Part shown: positions 1-13,200 of the stretch, piece by piece | Layout: every line of letters starts with the position of its first letter | Numbering within the stretch: the first letter of the stretch is position 1 | Source of the DNA: Calditrichota bacterium | Lineage (GTDB): Bacteria; CLD3 | Direction: 5' to 3' | Assembly (NCBI GenBank): GCA_008501735.1 | Contig: QQUF01000025.1 | Location: forward strand, 1 to 20,721 | DNA length: 20,721 nt | Notes under the pieces: generated by a model | Told to the model about the DNA's origin: nothing | Database searches by the model: none | The model's input: the letters and a program-made list of their open reading frames with translations, nothing else | Program-made: the position numbers and the translations under genes

Positions 1-988
1 TGATATCGAAGACTTAAGAGTAAAAGCAATCCAGTACAAAGATTCACTTTCAGCTTTAATGGTAACTTATCCTTCGACTCACGGAGTTTTTGAAGAAGGT
101 ATTAAGGAAATCTGCTCAATTGGTCACGAGAATGGTGGACAAGTTTATATGGATGGAGCGAATATGAACGCTCAAGTTGGTTTGACAAGTCCAGCAATTA
201 TTGGTGCTGATGTTTGTCATTTAAATTTACATAAAACTTTTGCAATTCCTCACGGAGGAGGAGGACCTGGAATGGGTCCAATTTGTGTTGCAAAGCATCT
301 TTCACCTTACTTACCAAGTCATACTTTACTACCAATGGGCGGGAATAAACCTATTTCTGCAATTTCTGCGGCACCTTGGGGAAGTCCAAGTATTTTGCTA
401 ATTTCTTATGGGTACATTAAAATGCTTGGCAGAGAAGGAGTAACTAACTCAACTAAGTATGCAATTTTGAATGCAAATTACATTAAGTCAAGACTTCAAA
501 ATCATTACAAATTGCTTTATGGCGGAACTAAGGGTAGAGTAGCTCACGAAATGATTTTTGATTTTAGAGAATTTAAAAAAATTGGAATCGAAGTTGAAGA
601 TATTGCAAAAAGATTAATGGATTATGGATTTCACGCTCCGACAATTTCATTTCCAGTTGCAGGAACAATTATGATTGAGCCAACAGAAAGTGAAGACAAA
701 GCCGAATTAGATAGATTCTGCGATACAATGATTTCAATTCGTGAGGAAATTCGTGAAGTCGAAGAAGGCAAAGCAGATTCTAAAAATAATGTTTTGGTAA
801 ACGCTCCTCATACTTCTTTGAAAGTAACTTCTGATGAATGGAACTTTGATTACTCACGCCAAAAAGCTGCTTTTCCGTTGCCTCATTTAAAAAACAATAA
901 ATTCTGGACTCCTGTTTCAAGAATTGATAATACTTTTGGTGACAGAAACATAATGTGTTCTTGTCCTCCAATTGAAGATTACTCATAA
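1..988 (+). CDS. gcvP: Glycine dehydrogenase (glycine cleavage P-protein), C-terminal part
   Basis: The gene runs in from the left edge; the first complete codon is at base 2 and the last about 328 residues are present. P-protein is the PLP enzyme that decarboxylates glycine and passes the aminomethyl group to the lipoyl H-protein. The fragment holds the PLP-lysine motif [17 protein letters not shown], with the lysine codon at 233-235, and the substrate-site stretch [10 protein letters not shown] before it. The C-terminus [16 protein letters not shown] matches the ending of the long single-chain GcvP rather than the split subunit-2 form, so the whole protein is probably about 950 residues (inference). 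The ATG at base 59 is internal and not the start. A terminator follows at 998-1029. Family assignment is secure; only the upstream extent is unknown. Confidence 0.96.
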
Positions 989-4344: not shown

Positions 4345-6165
4345 ATGCAAAACTACTTTCACAAATTCATCATTCCTGTAATGGGAACAGGTCATTCGAT
4401 TGATTCTCCGATTCGCGTGGCTCCTTATGGAATTTCTTCTGTAATTTCAATGCTAGATGATGTTTTAATGGAGGATATTCGAGAGTATTACTGCAAAAAA
4501 TATAATTTGGAATTTGCAAAAATTGCCAAAAAAGAATTTGACGGAAGGGCTAAAAGAGTTACTGCTTATTTAGAAACCGTCAAAGAAATAGTTAATCTCA
4601 AAGTTGAAGAGATTAAAAATCTCCCTTTCTTTGAAGAAAATGAAAAAACGAAATATTTTGAAATGCTTCCTGATGACGGTATTTTAAAACAAACTTATCA
4701 AAAGTTACAGAACCTTACTTCTAAAGAAGAACGTGAAAAACTAGCAAAAGAACTTACTGAATTAATTACTCCAGGTTCAATTGACGTAAACATTATGGTT
4801 AAAGTTGACCCAACTAAATACAACAAAGACAACTCTCCAATGAGTTTTGAGTTTAGCGATGCAAAATCTGCTCTACGTGGTTATGCTAATAGCTCTTTGG
4901 AATCAAGTGTTGTTTTCTCAGCAGGAATTAACCAAAGTCTTTTCGCCTATATGACAAAATTCAAAGACTTTTACAGAAATGAAAAAGGTGAAATCAAAAA
5001 GAAAATTATCATAAAAGTTAGTGACTTCCGCTCTGCTCTCATTCAAGGAAAATATATGGCGAAAAAAGGTTTGGAAGTTTCTGAGTTTAGAATCGAATCT
5101 GGTTTGAACTGTGGTGGTCACGCATTTTCTGCAAAAGGAAGTATCTTACCAGTTGTTTTAAAAGAATTCGCTGAAAATAGAAATAATTTTAAAGAACAAT
5201 TTCGCCCATTTATCAAAAATTTCTACGAAAAAATGGGTTGGGAATTTGTTGAAAAAGAAAATGAAACTGAACCGTTAATTACTGTTCAAGGTGGAATCGG
5301 AAATCACGGTGAAGTTGAAAGGCTTTTTGAAGAATTCAAAATTGACCAAACAGGTTGGGCAAGTCCTTTTCTCTTAGTTCCAGAAGCAACTTGTATTGAC
5401 GACCCAACAATGCAACTTTTGATTAATGCAACAGAAGAAGACCTTTATTTAAGCGATGTTTCACCTCTTGGAATTCCTTTTAATAACATTCGCAACACAG
5501 GTTCTGAACTTTGGACAAAAGAAAGAATCGCAAAAGGAACTCCTGGTTCTCCTTGTCCTAAAAAATACGCAGTAACAACTAAAGAATACACTGAAACTGA
5601 AATCTGTATTGCTTCCCGACAATATCAAAAACTAAAGCTTGATGAAATTGAAGCATCTGAGGAGTTTAGTTTTGAGGAAAAACAATTCTACTCAGAAGCT
5701 GCAATGGAAAGAACTTGTATTTGTGCTCATTTAGGAAATGGTGCTTTAATTGCTCTTGGAATTGAAGATGACCCAAAGAAAACTCCACAATCAATTTGCC
5801 CTGGACCAAACATAGCTTGGTTTGATAGGAAATACTCGCTTAAAGAGATGGTTGACCATATTTATGGAAGAATCGCTTCTCTTGTTCCCGAAGAAAGACC
5901 TCATATGTTTGCAAAAGAATTGACTTTAAATGTAAACTTTTTTGAAAAGAAAATAAGAAACCACAGATTTTTTCCATTTTCTGAAAAAGAATTTAAAGAA
6001 TATAAAAAGAACATTCAAAGTGGTTTTGACTACTGCACTGAGCTTTCCCAAAAAACTCCGTTCAAATTGGAAAATATTGAATCAGTAAAACAAATGTTAG
6101 AAGAATTGAAATTTAAATTCGATTACGTTTGCATAAAATACGAAAATCAACTTGAAATAGCGTAA
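4345..6165 (+). CDS. Conserved uncharacterised protein, possible FMN-type TIM-barrel, cysteine motifs
   Basis: A 606-residue soluble protein with no signal peptide or membrane helix. I recognise it as resembling conserved proteins of Bacteroidota with no known function. Features: an N-terminal block MGTGHSIDSPIRVAPYGISS (13-32); a charged helical insert (about 50-140); RIESGLNCGGHAF (249-261); LITVQGGIGNHGEVERLFEE (311-330) running into WASPFLLVPEA (338-348). The last two resemble the phosphate-binding strands of nitronate monooxygenase/IMPDH-like flavin barrels, but this is a motif impression only. A C-terminal set of cysteines follows: GSPCPKK (C404), EICIAS (C421), TCICAHLG (C458, C460) and SICPGPN (C485), which could bind metal or an Fe-S cluster. 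The ABC ATPase gene starts 7 bases after the stop, suggesting one transcript. Function is not known. Confidence 0.8.
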   Translation: MQNYFHKFIIPVMGTGHSIDSPIRVAPYGISSVISMLDDVLMEDIREYYCKKYNLEFAKIAKKEFDGRAKRVTAYLETVKEIVNLKVEEIKNLPFFEENEKTKYFEMLPDDGILKQTYQKLQNLTSKEEREKLAKELTELITPGSIDVNIMVKVDPTKYNKDNSPMSFEFSDAKSALRGYANSSLESSVVFSAGINQSLFAYMTKFKDFYRNEKGEIKKKIIIKVSDFRSALIQGKYMAKKGLEVSEFRIESGLNCGGHAFSAKGSILPVVLKEFAENRNNFKEQFRPFIKNFYEKMGWEFVEKENETEPLITVQGGIGNHGEVERLFEEFKIDQTGWASPFLLVPEATCIDDPTMQLLINATEEDLYLSDVSPLGIPFNNIRNTGSELWTKERIAKGTPGSPCPKKYAVTTKEYTETEICIASRQYQKLKLDEIEASEEFSFEEKQFYSEAAMERTCICAHLGNGALIALGIEDDPKKTPQSICPGPNIAWFDRKYSLKEMVDHIYGRIASLVPEERPHMFAKELTLNVNFFEKKIRNHRFFPFSEKEFKEYKKNIQSGFDYCTELSQKTPFKLENIESVKQMLEELKFKFDYVCIKYENQLEIA

Positions 6166-9614: not shown

Positions 9615-9650
9615 AATTTTTTGTTAAATTCTCCGCTAATCAAAACTCAC

Positions 9651-9655
9651 GAGGA
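9651..9655 (+). promoter_or_regulatory. Ribosome binding site deciding the pgsW-like start
   Basis: GAGGA lies 4 bases before the ATG at 9660. It favours this start over the in-frame TTG at 9621, which has only heptamer repeats upstream. Confidence 0.65.
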
Positions 9656-9659
9656 TTTA

Positions 9660-10721
9660 ATGTCAGCTCAAAAACATTACTACAAAAGTAATTTAACTAC
9701 TTCAAATTACTTAGCTTTAGCAGCTTTAACTTTAGTTTTTATCTTAGCTTCCGACCTATTTTTAATCCAAGTAAAACGAAAAAATTATTCAAAAAAATTA
9801 GAAGCCTCAGAACTTGCTCTTGAAGCTCAACTTACTTTGAGAAACGAAAATTTTGACTTAATCGGTGAAGAAATCTCCGTTATCACAACAGATTTGGGAG
9901 ATTCACTTTCAAAGCAAGTTTCGACAAACCCGAATTTCGCAGCAGCATTCATCGAAATGTTCGACGAAATCGGAATCAAACGAGGCGATACAGTAAGTGT
10001 TGCAATTACAGGTTCTTTTCCTGCAATTAACATTGCCTTTTACTCAGCTTGCAAAGTTTCAGGAGTTCATCCGATTGTGATTACTTCTGTTGGAGCTTCA
10101 CAATGGGGAGCGAACAAACCTGATGAAACTTGGCTTGATTTTGAAAAATTTTTTAACGAGAAAGGAGTTTTTCCTTACAAATCTGTCGCCGCTTCAATTG
10201 GTGGGAAGTCTGACATTGCAAGAGATTTGTCGGAAGAAGGAAAAAATATTTTGACAAATACTATTGGAAGACACGAAACAAGATTCATTCGAGCAAATTC
10301 AATTGTTGAATCTGCAAGAGAAAGAGTTACGATTTTTGACTCAGTTTCCACGAATGTAAAAGCATTTGTGAACATTGGAGGAGGAGTTTCAAGTCTTGGA
10401 GTTGGAAATTCCAAGTTCATTTCTCCGGGAGTTAATCTTGACCTTTTCGACGTAGAATTTCCCAAAATCGGAGCATTGACAATTCTTGCCGAAAGAGGTT
10501 TGCCAATCATTCACATTTCAGAAATTGTTGACTTGGAAAAGAGATACGGACTTAAAGAAGAAAATTACATTATTCCAAGAGTCGGCAAAGGCGAGATTTT
10601 CGAGACAATAAAATACAACCTAATTTACTTAGCTCCTTTTGCTATACTCTATTGGGCAATTCTATTTTTTATGTTAAGTAAATTCAGAAATGCAGCGATA
10701 AAGAAAGCTTCGGGAAATTAG
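9660..10721 (+). CDS. pgsW: Poly-gamma-glutamate system protein (PgsW-like), orphan
   Basis: A 353-residue membrane protein recognised as resembling the 'poly-gamma-glutamate system protein' family by its pattern: an N-terminal helix (16-36), the block ITSVGASQWGANKPDETWLD (141-160), AASIGGKSDIARDLSEEGK (177-195), a glycine-rich strand VNIGGGVSSLGVG (237-249), and a C-terminal helix (319-340). The soluble part between the helices probably faces outside the membrane (inference). In other genomes this family sits with the PgsB/CapB ligase and PgsC/CapC; neither is in this window, and both neighbours are on the opposite strand, so the gene stands alone here. The start at 9660 is chosen for its GAGGA site. 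The role in polymer synthesis or export is unproven for the family, so the symbol is tentative. Confidence 0.65.
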   Translation: MSAQKHYYKSNLTTSNYLALAALTLVFILASDLFLIQVKRKNYSKKLEASELALEAQLTLRNENFDLIGEEISVITTDLGDSLSKQVSTNPNFAAAFIEMFDEIGIKRGDTVSVAITGSFPAINIAFYSACKVSGVHPIVITSVGASQWGANKPDETWLDFEKFFNEKGVFPYKSVAASIGGKSDIARDLSEEGKNILTNTIGRHETRFIRANSIVESARERVTIFDSVSTNVKAFVNIGGGVSSLGVGNSKFISPGVNLDLFDVEFPKIGALTILAERGLPIIHISEIVDLEKRYGLKEENYIIPRVGKGEIFETIKYNLIYLAPFAILYWAILFFMLSKFRNAAIKKASGN

Positions 10722-10738: not shown

Positions 10739-11776
10739 TTACTCACATTCTGAACAAGGTACAAATTTACATTTAGGCAAAGAAAGTTTTAGCTTTATTA
10801 TATCTTCTTTAAGAATTTTTGTACCATAAATATCAATCATTTTTAATTTGCTTAAATTCAATATCGTGTCAATTTTACTAACGATAGTAAAGAATAGATT
10901 TAGCTCCTCAAGCTCAGTCAAGTTATTAAGAATATTTGTATTCTTGAAGTTCGTCGAAGATAAATTTAGGTATTTTAATTTTGTTAACTTTGAAATCGGA
11001 CTAAAATCTTTAATATTTTTGACACCTTTTAAGTTTAAGTACTCAAGATTTGTTAAATGTTCAATTGGCTCTATATTTTCTATAGCTGAATGAGATAAAT
11101 CTAAATATGTAATATTTTTTAAATTAGCCAATCCTTTAATATCTTCAATTTGAGAACCGTATAAAATCAATGTATCTAAATTTTCCAACTTAGATAAAGA
11201 GTTAAGACTTTTAATTTTTAGTGACCATCTTAAATTTAATAAAGTGAGTTTACTTAAATTTGACAATGGTTTTAGATTCTCAACCCGAGTACCACTTAAA
11301 GATAAATTTTTTAAATTTGTTAATCTAGATAATGGAGTAATATCATTTATTCCTGTACTATGTAAACTTAAATTTCTTAAGTTTGTTAAATTTGCTAAGA
11401 ATTCATAATTACTTATTTCTGTATCTCCAATGTCTAAATGTTTCAGATTTCTTAGTTCCTTCAAAGGAGATATGTCCTTAACAGAAGTATAATACAAGTC
11501 CAACCACTCTAGTTTTTTTAGATTTTTCAAAGAGCTTATATCTTCTACAGTTGTCATTCTTAAATCCAATTCTTTCAAATGGACAGAATCTGCTAAAAAA
11601 TCTATCCTAAGTTCATCTTGATCCTTTTTTGGAATTTTATGAAGAAAATTAATTTTAAGATGTGTTGAACTATTCTTTTGGAATTTTGAATTATTTTCAG
11701 AACAGGATAATGAAGAGCTTAAAAGAAAAATAACAAATAAGATTTGAGAAATAATTTTAAAATTTAAGAACAACAT
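10739..11776 (-). CDS. Leucine-rich-repeat lipoprotein
   Basis: A 345-residue predicted lipoprotein. The start at 11776 is chosen because AAGGAG lies 6 bases upstream and the protein then begins with a signal peptide, MLFLNFKIISQILFVIFLLS, ending in the lipobox SSLSC; a longer reading to 11833 would overlap nagZ and bury the signal. Twelve consecutive repeats of 22-23 residues follow (about 70-335), of the internalin/SDS22 class, such as LKNLSLSGTRVENLKPLSNL. A threonine or serine often replaces the usual asparagine at the ladder position (YYTSV, GDTEI, HSTGI). The C-terminus has clustered cysteines (CKFVPCSECE). It likely binds a protein or glycan at the cell surface or in the periplasm (inference). 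It follows nagZ by 20 bases. Confidence 0.88.
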   Translation of the reverse strand: MLFLNFKIISQILFVIFLLSSSLSCSENNSKFQKNSSTHLKINFLHKIPKKDQDELRIDFLADSVHLKELDLRMTTVEDISSLKNLKKLEWLDLYYTSVKDISPLKELRNLKHLDIGDTEISNYEFLANLTNLRNLSLHSTGINDITPLSRLTNLKNLSLSGTRVENLKPLSNLSKLTLLNLRWSLKIKSLNSLSKLENLDTLILYGSQIEDIKGLANLKNITYLDLSHSAIENIEPIEHLTNLEYLNLKGVKNIKDFSPISKLTKLKYLNLSSTNFKNTNILNNLTELEELNLFFTIVSKIDTILNLSKLKMIDIYGTKILKEDIIKLKLSLPKCKFVPCSECE

Positions 11777-11782
11777 TTTATT

Positions 11783-11788
11783 CTCCTT
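11783..11788 (-). promoter_or_regulatory. Strong Shine-Dalgarno site of the LRR lipoprotein
   Basis: On the minus strand AAGGAG precedes the ATG at 11776 by 6 bases. It is the strongest Shine-Dalgarno match I see in the window and fixes the start. Confidence 0.75.
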
Positions 11789-11796
11789 GTACAGTT

Positions 11797-13200
11797 TCAA
11801 ATAAAAACCAAATCTAACACAAATTTCTGGCAAGTCTCTGTAAAATCAAAAGTCTTACAAACCGAGCCTTTGAGTTTTTCAGCAGAATTTGGGCTTCCAA
11901 AAAGAATGTAATTTTCATTGCCTTTTGACACCGAATTCCAAAGTTCAATTTGCTTTGAGTTTAGGTTAATCGTGCCTTTATTCATTCGGATTTGCACTAA
12001 GCCAATTCCTAAAATTTCGGGTAATTCCTTTAATTGAGAAACTGAAATCCCATTTCCGCTAAAGTCTTTACTAAAAAGGAAGTTAAAAGAATCATCTTCA
12101 AGTTTTACTTTAATTTTCTTAAAACCATTTTCAGTGAAGAATTTATCAATTAACCACAAGTCTTTTTCGGTATCGTTTGTCTGAACTAAAACATTTTTGC
12201 TTGGTGAAACTCCTTGAACAACTCTTCCCCAAAAGTCATTCAACATTTTATTGAGATTGTTTGAATCAAATTCTTTTGGAAGTTCAGAATTAAATGCTGA
12301 AAAATTTTTTCTTAAAAACTCAATCCTTTGCTCAGACTCTAAAAGTTTCTCTTGAGAGATTTTCTTTTTGGCAAGTTCCTCTACTCTTTCAGGATTTTCG
12401 GGCATCAAAATTATATCAGTTCCAGCGAGTAATGACTCGACACAAAGTTCAGAATTGTCTCCTTCACCAATTCCTGCCATATACGAAAATGCATCAGTTG
12501 TCAAAACTCCATCGAACCCTAATTCCGTTCGCAAAATTTCAGTCAAAAAATAAGGTGAAAGCGAAGCAGGTTTGTTTTCAGAAAACTTAGGGAAAGAAAT
12601 GTGAGCATTCATAACCATTCCAACATTTTCAGAAATCGCTGCTTTGAAAGGCAGTAAATCAGTTTGCTCAAAAAAATCTTTGTCAGAATCACTTTGGACT
12701 AAACCTGTATGAGAATCTAAATCGGTGTTTCCGTGTCCGGGGAAATGTTTTGCACAAGCAACAACTCCATTTTTCTGAATTCCTCGAATAAAGGATTTCC
12801 CAAATTCAGCGACAGTTTTCGGATTACTTCCAAAACTTCTCAAATTAATTATTGGATTGTTCGGATTAGAATTTACATCTAAAACTGGTGCAAAGATTGT
12901 GTTAAGCCCCACAAATTGTGCCATTTTGGCAAGCTCGGAAGCAAATTCTTCGGTTTCTGCAAAAGTCGAATAATTTGCTAAAGCTAACTGCGACGGAATT
13001 TCTGGTAAATCGAAATTTCCTTCAACACTTGGTTTAAATCCTCTTTCTAAATCGTAACCAAGTATCGGTTTTGGCACATTTTTAAACTTTGAACAGATTT
13101 TCTTTATCTCACTTGAAGTGTATTCGAAGAAAATTAAGTGATTTTGGTTTGTATTACTTTTTTTAGATTTTCTAAGTTCTAAGATTGATTTTAAATTCAT
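11797..13200 (-). CDS. nagZ: Glycoside hydrolase family 3, NagZ-like beta-N-acetylglucosaminidase
   Basis: A 467-residue protein without a signal peptide, so probably cytosolic. It should cleave N-acetylglucosamine from muropeptides during peptidoglycan recycling or from related glycans. The NagZ loop KHFPGHGNTDLDSH (151-164) carries the general-acid histidine, and D236 in LTTDAF is the expected nucleophile. The barrel also shows FAPVLDVN (103-110) and the substrate loop LRSFGSN (120-126). At 467 residues it exceeds the single-domain E. coli enzyme; the C-terminal 130 residues look like a divergent second GH3 domain without recognisable catalytic residues. The LRR lipoprotein gene follows by 20 bases, so the two are probably co-transcribed. 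Confidence 0.85.
   Translation of the reverse strand: MNLKSILELRKSKKSNTNQNHLIFFEYTSSEIKKICSKFKNVPKPILGYDLERGFKPSVEGNFDLPEIPSQLALANYSTFAETEEFASELAKMAQFVGLNTIFAPVLDVNSNPNNPIINLRSFGSNPKTVAEFGKSFIRGIQKNGVVACAKHFPGHGNTDLDSHTGLVQSDSDKDFFEQTDLLPFKAAISENVGMVMNAHISFPKFSENKPASLSPYFLTEILRTELGFDGVLTTDAFSYMAGIGEGDNSELCVESLLAGTDIILMPENPERVEELAKKKISQEKLLESEQRIEFLRKNFSAFNSELPKEFDSNNLNKMLNDFWGRVVQGVSPSKNVLVQTNDTEKDLWLIDKFFTENGFKKIKVKLEDDSFNFLFSKDFSGNGISVSQLKELPEILGIGLVQIRMNKGTINLNSKQIELWNSVSKGNENYILFGSPNSAEKLKGSVCKTFDFTETCQKFVLDLVFI

Follow-up and report, generated by a model that had tools for sequence, protein, structure and literature searches.

FabX of Helicobacter pylori is an acyl-ACP dehydrogenase/isomerase of the nitronate monooxygenase family which carries both FMN and a [4Fe-4S] cluster (PMC8626469). 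Binding of FMN involves N99, E175, G180 and G221 among other residues, the enzyme uses H182 and this catalytic histidine is hydrogen-bonded by S273, while the cluster is held by C300, C304, C308 and C320 in a subdomain comprising residues 267-363 (PMC8626469). When FabX was described in 2021, such a cluster was absent from the other characterised members of the superfamily (PMC8626469). A homologue in Neisseria gonorrhoeae, NGO1024, is induced about 8-10-fold in anaerobic growth (PMC3032703) and has been reported, according to PMC11300592, to be indispensable for making unsaturated fatty acids anaerobically, the electron acceptor being unknown.

The window, which is the whole stretch of 20,721 nt analysed here from a Calditrichota bacterium, contains at 4345..6165 (+) a real gene with an ATG start and 606 codons, whose product of 606 aa belongs to an unnamed protein family and is proposed to be a FabX-like flavin/Fe-S oxidoreductase. 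No match to this protein was found in Pfam, NCBIfam or the PDB sequences, and comparison of the family profile and of individual members with the same three collections returned nothing meaningful; weak apolipoprotein-like matches were dismissed as originating from the C-terminal helices. A viral structure library gave no match, plasmid records contained no homologue and a description of the family was not found in literature searches. The gene occurs as a single copy in the window's genome, and the Pfam NMO matches of that genome were rejected as paralogues, their barrels being of the IMPDH, HisF and DHODH types. Upstream, a relA/spoT gene is separated from the ORF by a gap of 186 bases; on the other side, a gene for a UgpC/MalK-type ABC ATPase starts seven bases 3' of the ORF and does not recur as a neighbour across the family loci.

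Other features were noted in the window. Near its edge, an ORF at 59-988 (+) encodes only the C-terminal third of the glycine dehydrogenase GcvP (profile positions 633-939), and an ORF of 366 residues with a TTG start at 9621-10721 (+) has no Pfam match at E 1. A leucine-rich-repeat protein with ten LRR_4 stretches is encoded at 10739-11833 (-), the 5' end of its gene overlapping by 37 bases a GH3-family glycosidase gene located at 11797-13200 (-).

A scan of genome contigs identified 185 stretches related to the window gene, and the best 80 of these 185 loci display about 42-59% identity and are almost all full length. Relatives were found in Bacteroidota, Balneolota, Ignavibacteriota and Marinimicrobia, along with a small number of further phyla. 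Of 247 evenly sampled Bacteroidota genomes, 96 possess the gene, almost always in one copy, so that about four in ten of those sampled carry a protein that none of the curated family models searched names. In the tree, the window protein falls within a supported clade of 17 members, chiefly from Balneolota and mixed with Ignavibacteriota and Marinimicrobia, and the eight other genomes searched from the family and class of the window organism are devoid of the gene; this patchy distribution suggests transfer or loss. One genome (G166) contains, in addition to an intact copy elsewhere, a second copy broken by stop codons (C1:4371167-4372877).

The AlphaFold2 model, built from a 75-member alignment, reached pLDDT 92.2 and pTM 0.93 and, as indicated by Foldseek and VIA-align, has the TIM-barrel type of fold that the first-pass annotation of this DNA had anticipated in proposing a comparison with nitronate monooxygenase, FabK/PfaD and IMPDH folds. 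The top Foldseek match was H. pylori FabX (E 6e-9), followed by PfaD, trans-acting enoyl reductases, FabK and nitronate monooxygenases. With VIA-align, five FabX entries ranked highest (Z 22.6-23.5, 324-339 residues, 2.8-3.1 A, 19% identity), with FabK (Z 20-21), PfaD (Z 17-18) and the classic nitronate monooxygenases (Z 15-17.5) at lower ranks. Since the best structural match is an enzyme with FMN and a [4Fe-4S] cluster, a protein with both flavin and Fe-S is the preferred interpretation. The 339-residue alignment spans FabX 12-363, with at most about 13 residues of this span unaligned, and therefore most likely includes, judging from these ranges, the greater part of the cluster subdomain. 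When residues 345-606 were folded alone (pLDDT 90.6), the matches listed were all generic three-helix or helical bundles and did not include FabX, so that the case for the cysteine module considered in isolation is weaker.

In the model, residues 1-344 (4345..5376, +) form a predicted (beta/alpha)8 flavin-binding barrel having FabX, FabK and PfaD as structural matches. Its second strand is followed by a mostly helical stretch, residues 39-139 (4459..4761, +), defined from the secondary structure of the model and from conservation, which contains a conserved KYFEMLPD block and has, as judged by eye, no close counterpart in FabX-like sequences. Beyond the barrel, structural alignment and hhalign place a cysteine module (residues 345-510; 5377..5874, +) where FabX has its [4Fe-4S] subdomain, and the model ends in an antiparallel three-helix bundle that is weakly conserved (residues 521-606; 5905..6162, +).

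Profiles were compared using a FabX-like set composed of proteins with the CX3CX3C pattern from other genomes, one of which was verified against the PDB sequence of FabX (E 1e-74). The family aligned to this set in hhalign with E 2.5e-5 and a probability of 75%, and to a larger set that also contained H. pylori FabX with E 1.6e-4 and a probability of 50%, both probabilities being modest; FabK-like sequences gave E 0.087 over 12 columns. In these alignments H259 is paired with FabX H182 (the GGH histidine), S373 with S273 (SPxG) and C404 with C300, while E251 lies one residue off E175 owing to an extra loop residue. The counterparts of all four FabX residues are invariant in the family, as determined from alignments of a first 80 members and then of 110 members, 30 of which came from a separate search.

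The motif-like blocks reported in the first pass are indeed present, with RIESGLNCGGHAF at residues 249-261 (5089..5127, +), ITVQGGIG at 312-319 and FLLVPEA at 342-348. On the basis of conservation and of the alignment to FabX, the first block, which includes E251, C256, G257, G258 and H259, matches E175-x3-S179-G180-x-H182 with one residue more, a segment that in FabX provides flavin contact and the catalytic histidine (PMC8626469). The GGH motif with its catalytic histidine, a hallmark of the superfamily, is represented by SGLNCGGH, whose H259 is present in 110/110 members and aligns to the GGH histidine of FabX. Further along, QGGIG (residues 315-319; 5287..5301, +), which we propose as the flavin phosphate loop, corresponds to FabX AGGI (G220, G221), PFLLVPE (residues 341-347; 5365..5385, +) matches the FabX TRF...E segment, and SPLG (residues 373-376; 5461..5472, +) contains S373. 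Besides E251, G257, G258 and H259, the invariant residues of the family alignment include N149, G194, G316, G317, S373, P374, G376, K431 and H505. The residues that match the FMN and H182 sites of FabX suggest FMN as cofactor and a catalytic histidine, and the window protein is very probably a flavin enzyme of the nitronate-monooxygenase superfamily.

The neighbourhood of the family gene was explored with neighbours named from Pfam where scanned and by eye otherwise. Numerous aquatic bacteria, from several lineages, carry genes for nitric oxide handling next to it. Genes resembling ric adjoin the family gene at 12 loci, nosDFY together with nosL or nosZ are found near it at five, NorB (PF22085) at four, and Rrf2 regulators occur at eight; further neighbours are hemerythrin, a DGC protein, a thioesterase and a truncated globin. 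At most loci, the window included, no gene related to nitric oxide (NO) is adjacent, and in the window's own genome ric is present on another contig. The gene orders vary between lineages and thus do not correspond to one inherited block, while the Balneolota loci that have NO genes share one arrangement. Two other arrangements were observed. At six Chitinophagaceae loci, a protein of 142-190 residues with cysteines near its N terminus, which by eye resembles a pyridoxamine-phosphate-oxidase-like protein and has no Pfam match, is encoded just upstream (-1), and at seven loci of Ignavibacteria type, an alanine-racemase-like gene of 383 residues lies at +1 to +3 on the opposite strand.

Among the 247 Bacteroidota genomes, ric was detected in 66/96 genomes with the family gene and in 34/151 without it (p 6e-13, counts ignoring shared ancestry). 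Because anaerobes lack both genes, the test was rerun in COX3-positive genomes only, in which ric occurred in 63/88 genomes with the family gene and 34/93 without (p 3e-6, again ignoring shared ancestry). In 16 of the 66 genomes having both, ric lies within 20 kb of the family gene, when ca. 1% would be expected from genome size. For nosZ, 14/46 genomes have it within 20 kb of the family gene and its association vanishes once ric is held constant, indicating that nosZ itself is not the link; the association with qNOR was not significant in COX3-positive genomes alone (p 0.10). This association with NO genes is not proof of the substrate, and related genomes are non-independent samples.

Overall, these data favour, on balance, a window protein that acts as an FMN-dependent oxidoreductase with an Fe-S cluster, closest to FabX within the nitronate-monooxygenase superfamily, and that serves under conditions of low O2 or NO. 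In the scheme that we infer for its FMN, cluster, substrate, electron partner and physiological role, the TIM barrel of residues 1-344 would hold FMN, H259 would act as acid/base beside the flavin with C256 next to it, and the gene would serve at low oxygen, in nitrogen-oxide respiration or upon NO exposure, the involvement of low oxygen and NO being suggested by the neighbourhood.

A direct role in nitrosative stress is a serious rival, although a tentative one. The flavin/Fe-S centre would then act on a nitro, nitroso or nitrosothiol compound derived from NO, or feed electrons to the repair of NO-damaged centres together with Ric, and no acyl thioester would be involved. Such a role would account for the neighbourhood and for the co-occurrence with ric, norB, nos genes, hemerythrin, truncated globin and Rrf2 regulators, and the fold is one common to nitronate monooxygenases; yet by both fold and profile the protein is closest to FabX and to enoyl reductases of fatty acids, the classic nitronate monooxygenases scoring lower, and about one third of the Bacteroidota genomes bearing the gene are without ric. 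The broader proposal of a widespread flavin/Fe-S family in Bacteroidota, Balneolota and Ignavibacteriota, with a new five-cysteine cluster site and an undescribed redox reaction in nitric-oxide or nitrogen-oxide metabolism, is likewise speculative.

Within the favoured reading of a FabX-side oxidoreductase, the substrate would most likely be an acyl thioester (acyl-ACP or acyl-CoA) undergoing dehydrogenation/isomerisation or the reverse reduction, a proposal suggested by FabX and to which we attach somewhat less than even confidence. NGO1024 joins the two aspects, acyl-thioester chemistry and low oxygen. A narrower form, in which the protein is an acyl-ACP dehydrogenase/isomerase making unsaturated fatty acids with no need for O2-dependent desaturases and plays the part of FabX during anoxic growth by denitrification, is likewise a tentative proposal. 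FabX is the nearest fold, its catalytic His, Ser and Glu have matches and the gonococcal homologue offers a precedent, but no gene of fatty-acid synthesis recurs beside the family gene and about 44% of the residues of the window protein are unaligned to FabX. Strong FabX was detected in only 2/247 Bacteroidota genomes, neither of which carries the family gene; this pattern fits a replacement, with two genomes being too few to prove it or to establish mutual exclusion. The association with ric, norB and nosZ makes two roles testable, namely O2-independent fatty-acid unsaturation in denitrification and a new nitrosative-stress enzyme.

The cysteines bear on the second cofactor. C404, C421, C458, C460 and C485, to which the first-pass annotation had drawn attention, lie exactly at the positions it gave and are all invariant (110/110), as is a sixth, C256, which belongs to that annotation's own first motif and had been overlooked there; C50, C350, C564 and C596 are not conserved among the first 80 members. 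Its interpretation is thus supported by the predicted fold and by the invariant cysteines, the two comparisons it had named. These cysteine and motif features are far above chance, and such invariance points to residues that may serve as ligands or in catalysis. The module has the spacing C404-x16-C421-x36-C458-x-C460-x24-C485, and C458 and C460 form a C-X-C pair with identical spacing in 110/110 members. C404 (GSPC; 5554..5556, +) matches the FabX cluster ligand C300, C421 (ICIAS; 5605..5607, +) is a proposed ligand, and C485 (ICPGPN; 5797..5799, +) falls where FabX-family proteins have FxGxN. The partner of FabX C320 differs between the alignments, being C458 of the C458-I-C460 pair (5716..5724, +) in the first and C421 in that with the larger set; C458 is favoured because the FxGxN/CPGPN and VKEL/LKEM segments downstream stay in register. 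The FabX ligand pattern CX3CX3CX11C is absent from the window protein, in which no two residues clearly correspond to both C304 and C308; C421, the C458/C460 pair and C485 are found instead.

An Fe-S cluster in the window protein is nonetheless probable; it would be ligated by four of the five module cysteines, or by all five in an unusual cluster, and would relay electrons between FMN and an outside partner. A flavin enzyme lacking any electron-transfer cluster, with cysteines that serve to bind zinc or have a structural role only, is unlikely since the module sits where FabX has its [4Fe-4S] subdomain and C404 is aligned to one of the FabX ligands, even if a C-X-C with separated cysteines is unlike CX3CX3CX11C and the model is silent on metals.

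Compared with known systems, the nitronate monooxygenases (2-nitropropane dioxygenase) share the superfamily fold but are, to our knowledge, without the cysteine module, and a search of the window protein with their Pfam model NMO (PF03060) gave no match at a threshold of E 1. PfaD, the enoyl reductase of polyunsaturated fatty acid synthase, also combines a barrel with extra helical parts, with a structural score below that of FabX, and we know of no cysteine cluster module in it. FabK (enoyl-ACP reductase II) has the TIM barrel and the GGH histidine but no profile match, and the region taken up by the cluster module in FabX, and presumably in the window protein, is in FabK devoted to NAD(P)H binding (PMC8626469). 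H. pylori FabX is the best PDB match and shares the barrel, the E...GGH and SPxGxP motifs, one aligned cluster cysteine and a cysteine module in the same place. The window protein differs from it in having 606 instead of about 363 residues, with the extra helical stretch 39-139 and the C-terminal helical bundle, in replacing CX3CX3CX11C by C-x16-C-x36-C-x-C-x24-C, and in the extra cysteine beside the histidine. Its cysteine pattern and its additional length of about 240 residues thus argue for a new variant and not a FabX, and the family appears to be a second flavin and Fe-S branch of a superfamily whose one characterised cluster-bearing member, as described in 2021, was FabX.
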